IMG/VR virus record: IMGVR_UViG_3300020027_000006
Span: 1 to 64,000 of that record
Reading direction: 5' to 3' (one strand)
DNA length: 64,000 nt
Origin: a virus
Part shown: piece by piece, positions 43,673 to 49,387 of the stretch
Layout: every line of letters begins with the position of its first letter
How positions within the stretch are numbered: the first letter of the stretch is position 1
Translations under genes and position numbers: made by a program
Notes under the pieces: model-generated
Database searches by the model: none
Told to the model about the DNA's origin: nothing
The model's input: only the letters and a program-made list of their open reading frames with translations

Positions 43673-44455
43673 ATGTCTAGTACAAAAACAATGAAACGCT
43701 CAAAAGAGCAACGTGAGTCTGATATGAATATACTGTCTAAAATGTATATTCGAAACAAATCTCAGATGGAGATAGGCCGTACACTTGGAATATCTCAAGG
43801 TCAGGTCTCCAATGACCTCAAAAAACTACTCAAACGTTGGGAAGATACTCGCCTTAACGATATAGACCAATATAAAGCAGAGCAATTACAACGAATCAAT
43901 CACATAGAAGGTGAAATGTGGACAGCTTGGGAGCTTAGTAAGACCAAAGGTAAGATAACTATATCTAAATCAAAATCAGGAGAAATGGTCAAAATGCTTG
44001 ACCCGTCGACCGGAAGAGAATTTAAGATGGACGATGACCGTTACTGGAAAGCAGGTGAAATCGAAGAGCTTCCAACTGGCGGGGGTGATATGCAATACAT
44101 GAACGGTATTATGTGGTGTGTACAAGAACGTTCTAAAATTATGGGACTTAATGCTCCTAAGAAAATTGCTGCTACTGACCCAACCGGTACAATAGAAGCA
44201 GGTCAATCTGCAAAAGAGATACTTGGGGATATAATAGGCGGAATTTTAAAACGAGCTGAAAAATCTGATAAAGAATTAATAGGAAGTAAACTTATGGAAA
44301 TCGGAGATAACAATGAGATTGATGTTAGCTCTGGCTCAGTTCTGGCTCAAAAAATAAGGGATGAAAAAATACGAAGACTTCCGCCTGCAAAAAACGCAGG
44401 TACATCTAGTACCGAAGAAAATAATTACATTGATGCGGAGATAATAGATGAGTAA
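43673..44455 (+). CDS. Terminase small subunit-like HTH protein, 260 aa
   Basis: N-terminal HTH: 'RNKSQMEIGRTLGISQGQVS' followed by 'NDLKKLLKRWEDTRLNDIDQ', then a helical middle and an acidic C-terminus. Position directly before the large terminase (eight-base overlap) and the HTH support the small-subunit role, binding phage DNA for packaging. Start could also be the ATG at 43691. Confidence 0.65.
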   Translation: MSSTKTMKRSKEQRESDMNILSKMYIRNKSQMEIGRTLGISQGQVSNDLKKLLKRWEDTRLNDIDQYKAEQLQRINHIEGEMWTAWELSKTKGKITISKSKSGEMVKMLDPSTGREFKMDDDRYWKAGEIEELPTGGGDMQYMNGIMWCVQERSKIMGLNAPKKIAATDPTGTIEAGQSAKEILGDIIGGILKRAEKSDKELIGSKLMEIGDNNEIDVSSGSVLAQKIRDEKIRRLPPAKNAGTSSTEENNYIDAEIIDE

Positions 44456-47400
44456 AGAAAAATCAGCAGGCATTGATACATATAATGTAGAAGGCAAAGA
44501 ATCTAAGGTTGCCAATTATACCCCTGAACCTGATGATAACAGAAGCATAATGGAAAAACTTGCTGACCTTAGTGTAGAAAATCCAGAAGCTTATAACGAA
44601 GCAATAGACGCATTAATAGCCGAAAAAGGTGAAGATTGGTTTAAGAATCTTCGTTATGATTGGTCTATAAACGGACGACCTAAACAGTTTCCTCCACAGC
44701 CTATGGAAAAGTGGAGAGCTTGGATTTGTTTGGCAGGTCGCGGATGGGGAAAAGATTTAAGTCCTTTAACCCCAATACTTACAGTCAATCGTGGATGGAT
44801 TACATTAGATAATATTTTAGTAGGAGATGTAGTATTTGATGAGCAAGGTTCTCATACTTCAGTTACAGCTGTTTATGATACGAATCCTGAAAAATGTTAT
44901 AGACTTCATTTTAGTGACGGCACTTGTATAGAGGCTGGAGAGGGACATGAATGGGTGACTTGGGACAGACAAGACCGCAAAGCATATAGAAGGTCTACAT
45001 ACGAGGACGCTAATTCTTTTCCAGAAGATTGGGTTAATTGGAAGGTAAAACGTGTAACTGCTCGTACTTGGCTTAATAAAGAAAAAGTAGAGTCTGCTTT
45101 AGAATTATCTAAGGCTGGTTTTAGTAATAGAAAAATAGCTCAAATAACAGGATTAGGGAGGCTTGCTTTGGCTAAACACATTAAAGCTGGGCGATTTATA
45201 GAAAAACCAGTTCATGAGTTTGGAAAAAACAGAGTAAAAACTTCACAGGAAATAGTAGAAACTCTTTATCATGAGTTAGCTGACGGAAGATTAGAAACTA
45301 ATCACTGTATTCCTAATACTCGACCGTTAAAGACGGAAAATAAAATTTTGCCTATTGACCCTTATTTATTTGGTATGTGGCTTGGTGACGGTTCTAAAGC
45401 TAGTGGGCAAATCGCTACTCATAAAGATGACCTGTCTAATTTAACCTGTGAGTTGGATAAATTAGGATACAAGTATTCAGAACATAAAGACTATATATTT
45501 AATGTTTACGGTTTAGTTACTCAACTTAAAGAGCTTGGAGTACATAAAAACAAACATATCCCTTCAGATTATTTGTCGTCTTCCATAGACCAGAGACTAT
45601 CTCTTCTGCAAGGTCTTATGGACAGTGATGGTACTGCTGATAAAGATGGCTCAAGATGTGAATTTAGTCAGAGTAATGAAACACTTGCAAAACAAGTGTA
45701 TACTTTAATCGTCTCGCTTGGTATGAGTGCTCATATGACCTCTCGAATTCCAATATTAAATGGGGAAGAGAAAAAAGAAAACTGGAGAATAAGATTTACT
45801 CCTAATCTTCCAGTTTTCAGACTTCCTAGAAAACTGGAAAGATTAGATTTTTCTAGGTCTCAAATATTAAAAAGATATTGCAGATACATAATTAAAGCAG
45901 AAGAAATTGTTCCAATTCCTATGCGTTGCATAACTGTAGATTCCCCTAATTCTTTATACTTGGCAGGTGACCAATTAATCCCTACTCATAATACCAAGAC
46001 AGGGGCAGAAACTACAAATATTTGGGTCAACACACATAAAAAAGGAACTCCACCTATACGTATAGCTCTTATTGGTGCAACTACTAGTGACTGTAACGCG
46101 GTCATGGTTTCTGGAAATTCTGGTATACTCAGTATTTATCCAGATAAAGAAAAACCTGACTGGATTTCAACCAACAGAAAAGTTATTTGGCGGTATCCTG
46201 ACGGAGAAGTAAAGGCTATTGCGGAATGTTTTGCTTTAGACATCAATACTGAGATACCCACACCCAAAGGGTTTAAACTTATGGGTGATATTACAGTTGG
46301 TGAACAAGTATTTGATGAAAAAGGTCTCCCTTGCAATGTAACTGCTGTAACTGATACAGGACTAGACCATAAATGTTTTGAAATAACGTTTAAAAATGGT
46401 CAAAAAATAACGGCTGATGCTGCACATCTATGGAAAATTTCTACAGCTTCGGATAGAGATAGTAGAGTTGATAAAAGCAGAATAGTGAATTCTCAGTGGA
46501 TTGCGGACAACTTTAGTGTTCCGCATAAGGGAAGAAAAAACGATTTAAATATTTGGGTCAAATTAACAGAACCTGTATTGTACGAAGAAAAAGAGCTGTC
46601 TATTGCACCATACGTTTTAGGTGTATGGCTTGGAGATGGTGCAAATAATAATAGTTCTTTTGTATCAGAAACTTCTGAGATTCCAGATTTCATATCATCT
46701 TTTGGTTATTCTGTAACAAAAACTAAAGCACCAATGCGTTACACAATTTGTGGTCTTATTACTCAGCTTAAAGAGTTTGGACTTTATAGAAATAAGCATA
46801 TACCTTCGATTTACAAGCAAGGGTCTATTGAGCAAAGAAAAGAACTATTGCGGGGATTGTTAGATACAGATGGTTTTGTATCAAAAAAAGGTGCGATTGT
46901 ATTCTCTAATACAAATGAAGATTTAGTTGATGGGGTGTGTGAAATAGTTTCCAGTCTTGGTGGATGGACAACAAAAAAATTACAAAACCCAAAAAAGAAT
47001 CTTCCTTATAATCAAAAACCTAGATGGAAGGTAGTTATTAGAGGGCTGTATGACCTTTTCAAACTTCCACGAAAACTGGAGAGAGTAATAATTAGAAGAG
47101 TGTCCACTGATTTGCCAGTAGTTTCACTTAAAGAAGTAGAACCAACACCAGTTAGATGTATAACAGTAGACTCATCAGAACATCTATTTCTTGCTACTAG
47201 AAGCTATATTGTGACCTCAAACAGTGCAGAGGAGCCTGAGCGTCTTCGAGGCCCACAATTTAATTATGCGTGGTGTTTGATTGGAGAAACTCCAGTGTTA
47301 ATGGAGAATTTTACAACCAAACCTTTGAAAGATATTAAAGAGGGAGAATATGTACGAACGAGAGACGGGGCTAAGAAAGTATTAGCTTCTTATCTTACCA

Positions 47401-49184
47401 AAGAAAATGCTGACTTGTATGAGTTACTTCTTATGGACGGAAGAGTTATTATAGGTACAGGTGAGCATCCTGTATATTTATCAGATTCAGGATTTACTCA
47501 ACTTCAAAATATTAAAGAGGGAGATTTTGTATTATGTGCAAGTCCTGTATCAAATTCGACGGAGGAGTTTATCATCTTAGAGGAAACTCTCCTTATTATC
47601 AAACAAGTATTAGACTTCATAGAGAGGTATGGAGATACCACAACGGAAGAATCCCAGAAGGACATCATATCCACCATAAAAACGAGGATAGAACAGATAA
47701 TTCAGTTGAAAATTTGGAGTGCCTCACAAAAGAAGAGCATTCAAGAATTCACGGAACTAAGCGATTTGCGGAGTTTAGAGAGCTGGCTGTTGCAAATTCA
47801 ATTAAATCTAGGGAGCACAATAGAAAAGAACTACTTAAAAGAATTTTATTATGTAAATTATGCGGAAAAGAGTTTAGCAGCGGGTCAAAACATCCAAGAC
47901 AACTATGCTCTCAAAAATGCATGGATGAACTTAGAAACACATCATACACAGGAGAATCCAGATTATGTGCTTTTTGCGGAGAAGAGTACACTACATCAAA
48001 AAATGCTCAAAAATATTGTTCCAAACTATGCAATAACAGAGTACATGCGGACAGAGCCAGTAAACTGGTTGCTAAAACAATTAAATGTGTTATTTGTAAA
48101 ATTGAATTCAATTCAAAACGATTCAATGCAAGATTTTGTAGCACAAAATGCTCTAAATCTATACGATATGAAAGTGGTAGGCGTAAAAAAATTAGCGAAG
48201 AAATCAGACGTTTATGATTTAACTATTGAGGACAGTCATGAGTTTTTTGCAAACGGTGTTCTTGTGCATAATTGTGATGAATTAGCTGCTTGGCGTTATC
48301 AGGCAGCATGGGATATGTTAATGTTTGGTCTTCGTTTAGGAGACAACCCACAGGTCATAGTGACTACTACTCCTAGACCTTTTCCTATTTTGCTCGATGT
48401 ACTTAAATTAAAGACCAGCTGGACAACAATAGGTACAACTTATGAGAATCGTTCTAACTTAGCCCCTGCTTTTTTTAGTGACATCATAAACAAATATGAG
48501 GATTCAGCACTTGGTCGTCAAGAATTAATGGCCGAAATAATTGAAGAAGTTCCAAACGCTATGTGGAATGAGAAAAACATTGAGGCTAACAGACGTGATT
48601 ATAGTGATATAATTAATCTTCCAGAAATGTTAAGTATGGTTATAGCTATTGACCCCGCAACTACTAGTAGAAGTGGTTCTGCAGAAACCGGTATGTGTGT
48701 AGCGGGTTATGGAGAAGATGACCATTTCTATATATATCATTTAGACGCAGTATCTATGCAGCCTGATAAATGGGCAACTCGTGCTCTCAATTTATTTGAG
48801 GACTATAACTGTGATAAATTAATAGCAGAGGTTAATAATGGAGGAGATTTAGTAGAAACAGTTATAAAATCTATTAATCCTATGCAAAAAGTATACCCTG
48901 TTTATGCATCTCGCGGTAAAATTACTCGTGCTGAACCTATTGCAGCTCTTTATGAGCAAAATCGTGTTCATCATATAGGAAGATTTTTAGAGGGTGAACG
49001 TCAAATGACTACATTTAATCCGCTAGAGAACCCTCACGGTCTTAAAGATATGGTAGACGCTTTGGTTTGGGCAGTCACTTGGCTGGTTAATACTACTCAA
49101 GGTAAAAATACTTTTAAACCGGCAGTTGGGGGTTCTCGCACAAAATTATCAAATTATAGAAAAATATTTAATACAGATTTTTAA
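44448..49184 (+). CDS. terL: Terminase large subunit with three inteins
   Basis: DNA-packaging ATPase-nuclease. The 1,578-residue frame contains about 502 residues of terminase. Removing three inteins restores 'LAGRGWGK|TKTGAE' (Walker A), 'CF|SAEEPERLRGP' and 'NYAW|CDELAAW' (Walker B), then an 'IVTTTPRP' coupling motif and a C-terminal nuclease region starting 'MVIAIDPATTS'. Two inteins thus sit in the ATPase motifs and one between them. Host junction residues after each intein are Thr, Ser and Cys, as needed. Starts ATG 44448 inside the upstream gene. Confidence 0.93.
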   Translation: MSKEKSAGIDTYNVEGKESKVANYTPEPDDNRSIMEKLADLSVENPEAYNEAIDALIAEKGEDWFKNLRYDWSINGRPKQFPPQPMEKWRAWICLAGRGWGKDLSPLTPILTVNRGWITLDNILVGDVVFDEQGSHTSVTAVYDTNPEKCYRLHFSDGTCIEAGEGHEWVTWDRQDRKAYRRSTYEDANSFPEDWVNWKVKRVTARTWLNKEKVESALELSKAGFSNRKIAQITGLGRLALAKHIKAGRFIEKPVHEFGKNRVKTSQEIVETLYHELADGRLETNHCIPNTRPLKTENKILPIDPYLFGMWLGDGSKASGQIATHKDDLSNLTCELDKLGYKYSEHKDYIFNVYGLVTQLKELGVHKNKHIPSDYLSSSIDQRLSLLQGLMDSDGTADKDGSRCEFSQSNETLAKQVYTLIVSLGMSAHMTSRIPILNGEEKKENWRIRFTPNLPVFRLPRKLERLDFSRSQILKRYCRYIIKAEEIVPIPMRCITVDSPNSLYLAGDQLIPTHNTKTGAETTNIWVNTHKKGTPPIRIALIGATTSDCNAVMVSGNSGILSIYPDKEKPDWISTNRKVIWRYPDGEVKAIAECFALDINTEIPTPKGFKLMGDITVGEQVFDEKGLPCNVTAVTDTGLDHKCFEITFKNGQKITADAAHLWKISTASDRDSRVDKSRIVNSQWIADNFSVPHKGRKNDLNIWVKLTEPVLYEEKELSIAPYVLGVWLGDGANNNSSFVSETSEIPDFISSFGYSVTKTKAPMRYTICGLITQLKEFGLYRNKHIPSIYKQGSIEQRKELLRGLLDTDGFVSKKGAIVFSNTNEDLVDGVCEIVSSLGGWTTKKLQNPKKNLPYNQKPRWKVVIRGLYDLFKLPRKLERVIIRRVSTDLPVVSLKEVEPTPVRCITVDSSEHLFLATRSYIVTSNSAEEPERLRGPQFNYAWCLIGETPVLMENFTTKPLKDIKEGEYVRTRDGAKKVLASYLTKENADLYELLLMDGRVIIGTGEHPVYLSDSGFTQLQNIKEGDFVLCASPVSNSTEEFIILEETLLIIKQVLDFIERYGDTTTEESQKDIISTIKTRIEQIIQLKIWSASQKKSIQEFTELSDLRSLESWLLQIQLNLGSTIEKNYLKEFYYVNYAEKSLAAGQNIQDNYALKNAWMNLETHHTQENPDYVLFAEKSTLHQKMLKNIVPNYAITEYMRTEPVNWLLKQLNVLFVKLNSIQNDSMQDFVAQNALNLYDMKVVGVKKLAKKSDVYDLTIEDSHEFFANGVLVHNCDELAAWRYQAAWDMLMFGLRLGDNPQVIVTTTPRPFPILLDVLKLKTSWTTIGTTYENRSNLAPAFFSDIINKYEDSALGRQELMAEIIEEVPNAMWNEKNIEANRRDYSDIINLPEMLSMVIAIDPATTSRSGSAETGMCVAGYGEDDHFYIYHLDAVSMQPDKWATRALNLFEDYNCDKLIAEVNNGGDLVETVIKSINPMQKVYPVYASRGKITRAEPIAALYEQNRVHHIGRFLEGERQMTTFNPLENPHGLKDMVDALVWAVTWLVNTTQGKNTFKPAVGGSRTKLSNYRKIFNTDF
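44754..45992 (+). mobile_element. Intein 1 in Walker A, class-3-like, LAGLIDADG
   Basis: 413 residues, from Asp (after GRGWGK) to THN before Thr. It lacks a Cys/Ser at position 1, but has the class 3 triad pattern: Trp in 'GEGHEWVTW', Cys in 'MRCITVDSPNSLYLA', Thr in 'LIPTHN'. The LAGLIDADG endonuclease is visible as 'LFGMWLGDGS' and 'LLQGLMDSDGTADKDG'. A helix-turn-helix segment ('ALELSKAGFSNRKIAQITGL') lies between the splicing and nuclease parts. Confidence 0.85.
46233..47222 (+). mobile_element. Intein 2, class-3-like with Ala1, LAGLIDADG
   Basis: 330 residues, from Ala (ALDINTEIPTPKGF) to VTSN before Ser. Class 3 residues: Trp in 'ADAAHLW', Cys in 'VRCITVDSSEHLFLA', Thr in 'IVTSN'. Endonuclease motifs 'VLGVWLGDGA' and 'LLRGLLDTDGFVS'. 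Related to intein 1 across its length. Confidence 0.87.
47274..48272 (+). mobile_element. Intein 3 in Walker B, class 1, with embedded frame-shifted HNH gene
   Basis: 333 residues, from Cys (CLIGETPVLMENF) to LVHN before Cys. Splicing blocks: 'GTGEHPVYL' (block B, Thr..His), 'VYDLTIEDSHEFFANGVLVHN' (blocks F and G). Between 'NIKEGDFVLCAS' and block F the frame carries about 210 residues with no known domain. In another phase the same DNA encodes a full HNH endonuclease. Confidence 0.9.
47534..48217 (+). CDS. HNH endonuclease nested out of frame in intein 3
   Basis: 227 residues in a different phase from terL. 'LHREVWRYHNGRIPEGHHIH' and 'HKNEDRTDNSVENLECLTKE' form a standard HNH_3 core; three Cys4 fingers follow (CKLC..CSQKC, CAFC..CSKLC, CVIC..CSTKC). 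The ATG has GAGGGAG about ten bases upstream, enough for independent translation. It starts right after the N-terminal splicing half and its stop lies inside block F, so intein and endonuclease share coding DNA in two phases. Probably the homing nuclease of this intein. Confidence 0.88.
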   Translation: MCKSCIKFDGGVYHLRGNSPYYQTSIRLHREVWRYHNGRIPEGHHIHHKNEDRTDNSVENLECLTKEEHSRIHGTKRFAEFRELAVANSIKSREHNRKELLKRILLCKLCGKEFSSGSKHPRQLCSQKCMDELRNTSYTGESRLCAFCGEEYTTSKNAQKYCSKLCNNRVHADRASKLVAKTIKCVICKIEFNSKRFNARFCSTKCSKSIRYESGRRKKISEEIRRL

Positions 49185-49192
49185 GGAGCGTT

Positions 49193-49387
49193 ATGGAAGA
49201 AAATAATCTGAGGAACAAGAACATGGACAAGCTGAATAATAAAGAGCACAAAGCTTGGGAAAATTATGAAAAAACCCGAGATGTAAAATATTTACAGGTT
49301 GTCAAAGACTGTATAGATAAACGAAGCAGACTCCTTGAATCTAAGAAGCCTGCTATGTATAGTGCCTTTTTCGGAGAGGTAGCATGA
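49193..49387 (+). CDS. Hypothetical protein, 64 aa
   Basis: MEENNLRNKNMDKLNNKEHK; helical, ends AFFGEVA. AAGGAG upstream, eight bases after terL. Confidence 0.6.
   Translation: MEENNLRNKNMDKLNNKEHKAWENYEKTRDVKYLQVVKDCIDKRSRLLESKKPAMYSAFFGEVA

Follow-up and report, generated by a model that had tools for sequence, protein, structure and literature searches.

An HNH endonuclease gene nested out of frame in a viral terminase intein

How can one stretch of a viral terminase gene be read without a stop as part of an intein and also hold a complete endonuclease gene in another frame? The locus that raises this question lies in a window of 64,000 nt (the whole stretch of DNA that was analysed), which is part of an IMG/VR virus record of 75,244 bases. 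A sequence-only reading of the window had proposed that the third intein of the terminase (TerL) precursor contains a complete HNH endonuclease in another frame. The features of the locus are:

44448..49184, + strand: TerL precursor ORF with three inteins, 1578 aa; open throughout (internal stops, 0)
47274..48272, + strand: intein 3, in the TerL frame, at the Walker-B site (AW/C...HN/CDE); C at the start, HN before Cys+1
47274..47540, + strand: N-terminal splicing half of intein 3, residues 1-89 (C1; block B TGEHPV); pLDDT 96-98
47517..47523, + strand: GAGGGAG, Shine-Dalgarno-like, within intein codons K-E-G-D
47534..48217, + strand: nested HNH endonuclease ORF, 227 aa, offset +2 to TerL (the -1 frame); ATG start, TGA stop
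47541..48158, + strand: DNA of the HNH ORF as read in the intein frame; a passive linker without stops and with low model confidence, as judged from stops, identity, dN/dS, and pLDDT
47615..47752, + strand: HNH core, residues 28-73; H29, H47, H48, N56, N60, and H69 invariant in relatives, H73 nearly so
47852..48151 (end approximate), + strand: zinc-finger repeats of the HNH protein, treble-clef-like CxxC...CxxxC
48159..48272, + strand: C-terminal splicing half of intein 3, residues 296-333 (blocks F/G, HN); shares the final ~19 codons of the HNH ORF

The proposed arrangement is present. The TerL ORF has no stops, intein 3 matches Intein_splicing in the TerL frame (E = 4e-16), and the nested ORF matches HNH_3 from Pfam in its own frame (E = 2e-18), at an offset of 2 (47534-44448=3086; 3086 mod 3=2). 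Intein 3 has the residues of a class 1 cis-intein, namely a C1 nucleophile, TxxH in block B, HN at the C terminus, and Cys+1; C1, T62, H65, and N333 are invariant across 31-35 aligned members. A stop directly 5' of the ATG closes the HNH frame, so the HNH is a gene-sized ORF rather than an accidental long frame. The HNH motif and the zinc-binding Cys columns are intact in the alignment of relatives. The HNH stop codon, which had been placed in splicing block F, is indeed at the start of that block (VYDL..., 48215-48217).

Structure models of the two frames differ. In the AlphaFold model of the intein frame, the two HINT halves (residues 1-89 and 296-334) have pLDDT of 93-98, and the model resembles mini-inteins of known structure (1mi8, TMt 0.83), so both halves are predicted to form a HINT fold; block means in the middle are just 34-71. 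The model of the HNH frame, from the same DNA, has a mean pLDDT of 87 and weak fold matches to solved nucleases, including I-HmuI (E about 0.1). The alignments for these models were built without rows from the phage record collection.

The other two TerL inteins (44754-45992 and 46227-47222) both have in-frame LAGLIDADG_3 domains. Intein 1 starts with Asp instead of Cys or Ser, and it has Thr+1 together with W and C in blocks B and F, respectively, which suggests that it belongs to class 3 (WCT).

Could both frames be open by chance? The probability of (61/64)^228 given by the sequence-only reading is not a suitable null model, as the nested offset has far fewer stops than the other one (about 7 versus 19 per free-standing HNH). 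The non-randomness that it was meant to convey does hold. When we kept the HNH protein fixed and shuffled synonymous codons, 5.64 stops were expected in the intein frame and 0 were observed; when we kept the intein-frame protein fixed instead, 9.45 stops were expected in the HNH frame. In each case, 0 of 20,000 shuffles left the other frame open. The third frame of the overlap has 29 stops. Thus, a chance origin of the double open frame is excluded.

The same pattern extends to other nested genes. None of the 62 nested genes has an intein-frame stop within the HNH, as compared to 2.1 expected from shuffling. Homologues that are free of the constraint against stops do have them at this offset, with 7.2 per gene in the free-standing class and 6.0 in the split class. 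At the other offset, there are about 19 stops per HNH, for nested and free-standing genes alike. HNH codons therefore yield about 2.7 times fewer stops at offset +2, which is intrinsically easier to keep open, and this explains why that offset is preferred. Nested genes for a second type of nuclease, Endonuclease VII (described below), have 0 stops in 23 distinct genes versus 27.5 expected.

We also asked which frame is under selection, mainly with pairs other than the window locus, whose HNH is only 44-46% identical to its closest relative. Between nested pairs, dN/dS was 0.09-0.37 in the HNH frame and 0.14-0.38 in the N-terminal splicing half (IntN) where dS was not saturated, whereas the overlap gave 0.8-2.1 when its codons were taken in the intein frame. 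Between the window locus and L011, substitutions at the three HNH codon positions number 65/53/108, which favors third positions. The HNH frame is thus under purifying selection, and the result that would have refuted the sequence-only reading, a second frame without such selection, is not seen. In the intein frame, amino-acid identity between the window locus and L011 is 0.24, and 0.24 is forced by the HNH. Closer pairs have a modest excess of identity above the forced level, and split loci show the same excess. Together, the dN/dS and the identity at the forced level imply that the overlap is a passive linker in the intein frame: it is unconserved, avoiding stops is the sole constraint, and any dual function is confined to the edges. 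The earlier statement that two functional proteins share this DNA is correct at those edges but not across the overlap. A functional linker protein in the intein frame is ruled out by identity equal to the synonymous null, dN/dS of around 1 or above, and low model confidence.

The architecture is not unique to the window locus. A blastn search of the intein against phage records gave no match, and neither did a single-sequence scan of viral contigs with the HNH; relatives were recovered by profile scans. A further search of phage records found a single record, MT838676, that matches both frames over the same stretch. The offset-2 layout is also present in two isolates, Acinetobacter phage Highwayman and Tetrasphaera phage TJE1, and in the genome of Rhodobacteraceae phage MD07. 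Across IMG/VR, GTDB genomes, and phage records, scans with an HNH profile yielded 126 classifiable loci, with a few near-duplicate contigs among them: 62 are nested at offset 2, 3 are nested at offset 1, none are in frame, 28 are in split inteins, 28 are free-standing, and 5 are partial.

Two other scans started from the intein. A scan with the intein alignment found an HNH at offset 2 in 79 of 80 loci, but it is biased toward the nested type because the query contains the linker. The IntN-only scan is blind to the insert; its query was a closer set, since a diverse IntN alignment was too variable. At offset 2, it identified 38 Endonuclease VII and 23 HNH_3, of which one is a decayed remnant. 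It also returned 1 HNH at offset 1, 5 mini-inteins, and a few LAGLIDADG forms that are in frame. Pooling all scans, HNH_3 is at offset 2 in 163 loci (141 clusters at 90% identity) and at offset 1 in 5, and Endonuclease VII is at offset 2 in 39 loci (18 clusters). Among these 168 HNH-in-intein loci, we found no in-frame HNH_3, and hence no in-frame homologue that differs from the window locus by an indel.

The contigs that carry these elements are assigned to both bacteria and archaea. Most of the insertions are in TerL, either in the nuclease domain (DH/C...DAxRY) or, in the window's clade (L011 and L012), at Walker B. TerL inteins with Endonuclease VII (PF02945) at offset 2 include L239, L235, L241, L245, L247, L271, L272, and others, some of them from Gordonia phages. 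L248 has a different, C-terminal HNH with zinc fingers, which is nested at offset 1 in its intein. In the records of TJE1, Highwayman, MD07, and Gordonia phage Fosterous, TerL is annotated and the nested endonuclease is not. Overall, the out-of-frame nested endonuclease is a widespread and mostly unannotated design, not a one-off.

We think it likely (a probability of roughly 85%) that the element is an intein that carries a separate and independently translated homing-endonuclease gene in another frame; we infer its splicing, translation, cleavage, and homing. The gene, at +2, would occupy the usual seat of intein endonucleases, between the splicing halves. The ribosome that translates TerL would pass through the endonuclease DNA as a meaningless linker without stops, and the two HINT halves would then fold, cut out the intein with its linker, and ligate TerL. 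A second ribosome would initiate at the internal Shine-Dalgarno site and ATG to make a free HNH/zinc-finger endonuclease. The presumed enzyme would cut intein-less alleles of terL, so that the intein and the nested gene are copied in as a single unit. Selection would act on the HNH protein and on the two splicing halves, with the intein frame of the overlap contributing only an absence of stop codons.

Several observations bear on mobility. The splicing half and the HNH diverge in parallel, so they probably travel together as a unit. Some inteins, such as L225 (IntN identity to the query, 46%), are mini-inteins without an endonuclease, and the nested copy in L237 is decayed. In TerL relatives without the intein, the alignment is continuous across the insertion site, and the distribution of the element is sporadic. 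Alternatively, the HNH might work with TerL in DNA packaging rather than in homing: free-standing homologues adjoin TerL, and PMC10448857 discusses phages in which HNH proteins cooperate with terminase. However, the HNH is found in inteins at more than one TerL site, has been lost from mini-inteins, and is missing in many TerL relatives, much like a mobile endonuclease. We consider a packaging role to be unlikely.

How would the HNH be expressed? The GAGGGAG site that had been ascribed to the HNH is at 47517-47523; its GGAG ends 10 nt before the ATG at 47534, and we rated it as a moderate Shine-Dalgarno sequence. Shine-Dalgarno matches of at least 5 nt precede 42% of nested starts (for random starts, the figure is 10%, and for free-standing genes, 58%), and 51 of 57 nested loci have an ATG in the leader zone (24.8 expected). 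Given this enrichment of both signals, internal initiation is the best reading. Alternatively, programmed -1 ribosomal frameshifting might produce the HNH as part of a TerL-IntN-HNH fusion, since offset +2 is the -1 frame and the phase is compatible with -1 slippage; also, 7 of 57 nested leader zones contain strict slippery heptamers. But by our inspection, the leader zone of the window locus has no strict heptamer, a few loci use the other phase, and frameshifting needs neither the ATG nor the Shine-Dalgarno sequence that are so strongly enriched. This makes frameshifting quite improbable as the route to the HNH.

Inteins often carry in-frame endonucleases. An HNH_3 intein of this in-frame kind is known from cyanophage CL131 (PMC6293099), so the nested ORF could be a decayed relic of an in-frame HNH that was displaced by indels, or else a chance open frame. 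Given the lack of in-frame relatives among the 168 loci, the result of the shuffles, the intact catalytic and zinc residues, and the purifying selection, we give this explanation very little credence. Phages often carry HNH genes within group I introns, but an intron-borne HNH that is removed as RNA is similarly far-fetched here, as a search of 44300-49300 against Rfam found no match to a group I or II intron or to any other family, protein-splicing residues are conserved, and a HINT fold is predicted.

The split relatives suggest how an intein with a nested gene might relate to split inteins. In the split versions, C1 is kept in most, and all have Asn before Cys+1 at the end. For 22 of 26 split loci, by our count, IntC is still in the nested phase and either overlaps the HNH tail or comes after it, and the phase of IntN is variable. 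The IntC pattern fits a conversion from nested to split, and it also fits simple geometry. There were at least 6 changes between the nested and split states, on an unrooted tree and so without direction. In L003 (Vibrio phage 1.245.O), the TerL intein is split around an overlapping HNH, with IntN and IntC in the same frame and the HNH at offset 2; its IntC piece is annotated as a hedgehog/hint protein. L102 (2648-3688, from a MAG contig of Candidatus Methanimicrococcus) is a split-class relative that is closed by a TAG alone. It has one TAG in each of the overlapping frames, 7 nt apart, and if TAG is read as a residue, both the HNH (...RRK[TAG]GIDDEERECINCG...) and the intein reach their normal ends. 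As this organism belongs to the Methanosarcinaceae, it is plausible that TAG encodes pyrrolysine. L008 is a "fractured gene": a helicase whose intein is split around an ORF that we take to resemble a Vsr-like homing endonuclease.

More broadly, and at slightly less than even odds, out-of-frame nesting may be a general and repeatedly evolved way to lodge small endonucleases of the HNH type in inteins (HNH_3, Endonuclease VII, and perhaps one more). The endonuclease would then be released from the spliced precursor and open to regulation of its own, with the intein frame left unbroken. It would also bridge cis-inteins and split inteins, as one stop in the linker would turn a nested intein into a split one with the start of IntC still inside the endonuclease gene. 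Where split inteins and fractured genes come from is a long-standing question, for which nested inteins thereby suggest a testable route. They are also a clean natural case of overlapping genes, with one frame coding and the other constrained only to lack stops, which accounts for the preferred phase. Endonuclease searches that are limited to the intein's own frame overlook this class, and the carrier records annotate TerL alone.

How does intein 3 compare to known systems? Fractured genes with split inteins, reportedly described by Dassa et al. in 2009, have a free-standing endonuclease between the halves. Intein 3 also has an endonuclease gene between its splicing halves, and 28 of its relatives, with an interrupted host frame, are in split form; but the TerL frame of intein 3 is continuous, so splicing would be in cis. 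As in canonical inteins (LAGLIDADG inteins, or the dCTP deaminase intein of CL131, whose HNH_3 endonuclease is in frame [PMC6293099]), the endonuclease lies between the HINT halves, but in intein 3 it is a separate ORF at offset 2 and would not be included in the protein that is spliced out. Related cases in actinobacteriophages may be described in a 2025 preprint on inteins with "non-canonical architecture", judging from its title and from its citation for overlapping frames in PMC11855218; since we found out-of-frame Endonuclease VII in inteins of Gordonia phages, that preprint may already report part of the arrangement. Contrary to the sequence-only reading, which knew of no described example, a case of an out-of-frame HNH outside an intein has been published: the ShiLan domain, in which the HNH is within an insertion in a methylase (PMC11855218). 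Neither a splicing element nor a ribosome-binding site was detected for ShiLan, and the insertion is presumed to remain in the protein (PMC11855218), whereas the host of the window's HNH is a canonical intein. In both cases, a host ORF that stays open conceals a zinc-finger HNH in another frame. The ShiLan HNH is at offset 2, as in intein 3, and it matches the HNH profile that we built (E = 1.6e-5). ShiLan is the closest published case.
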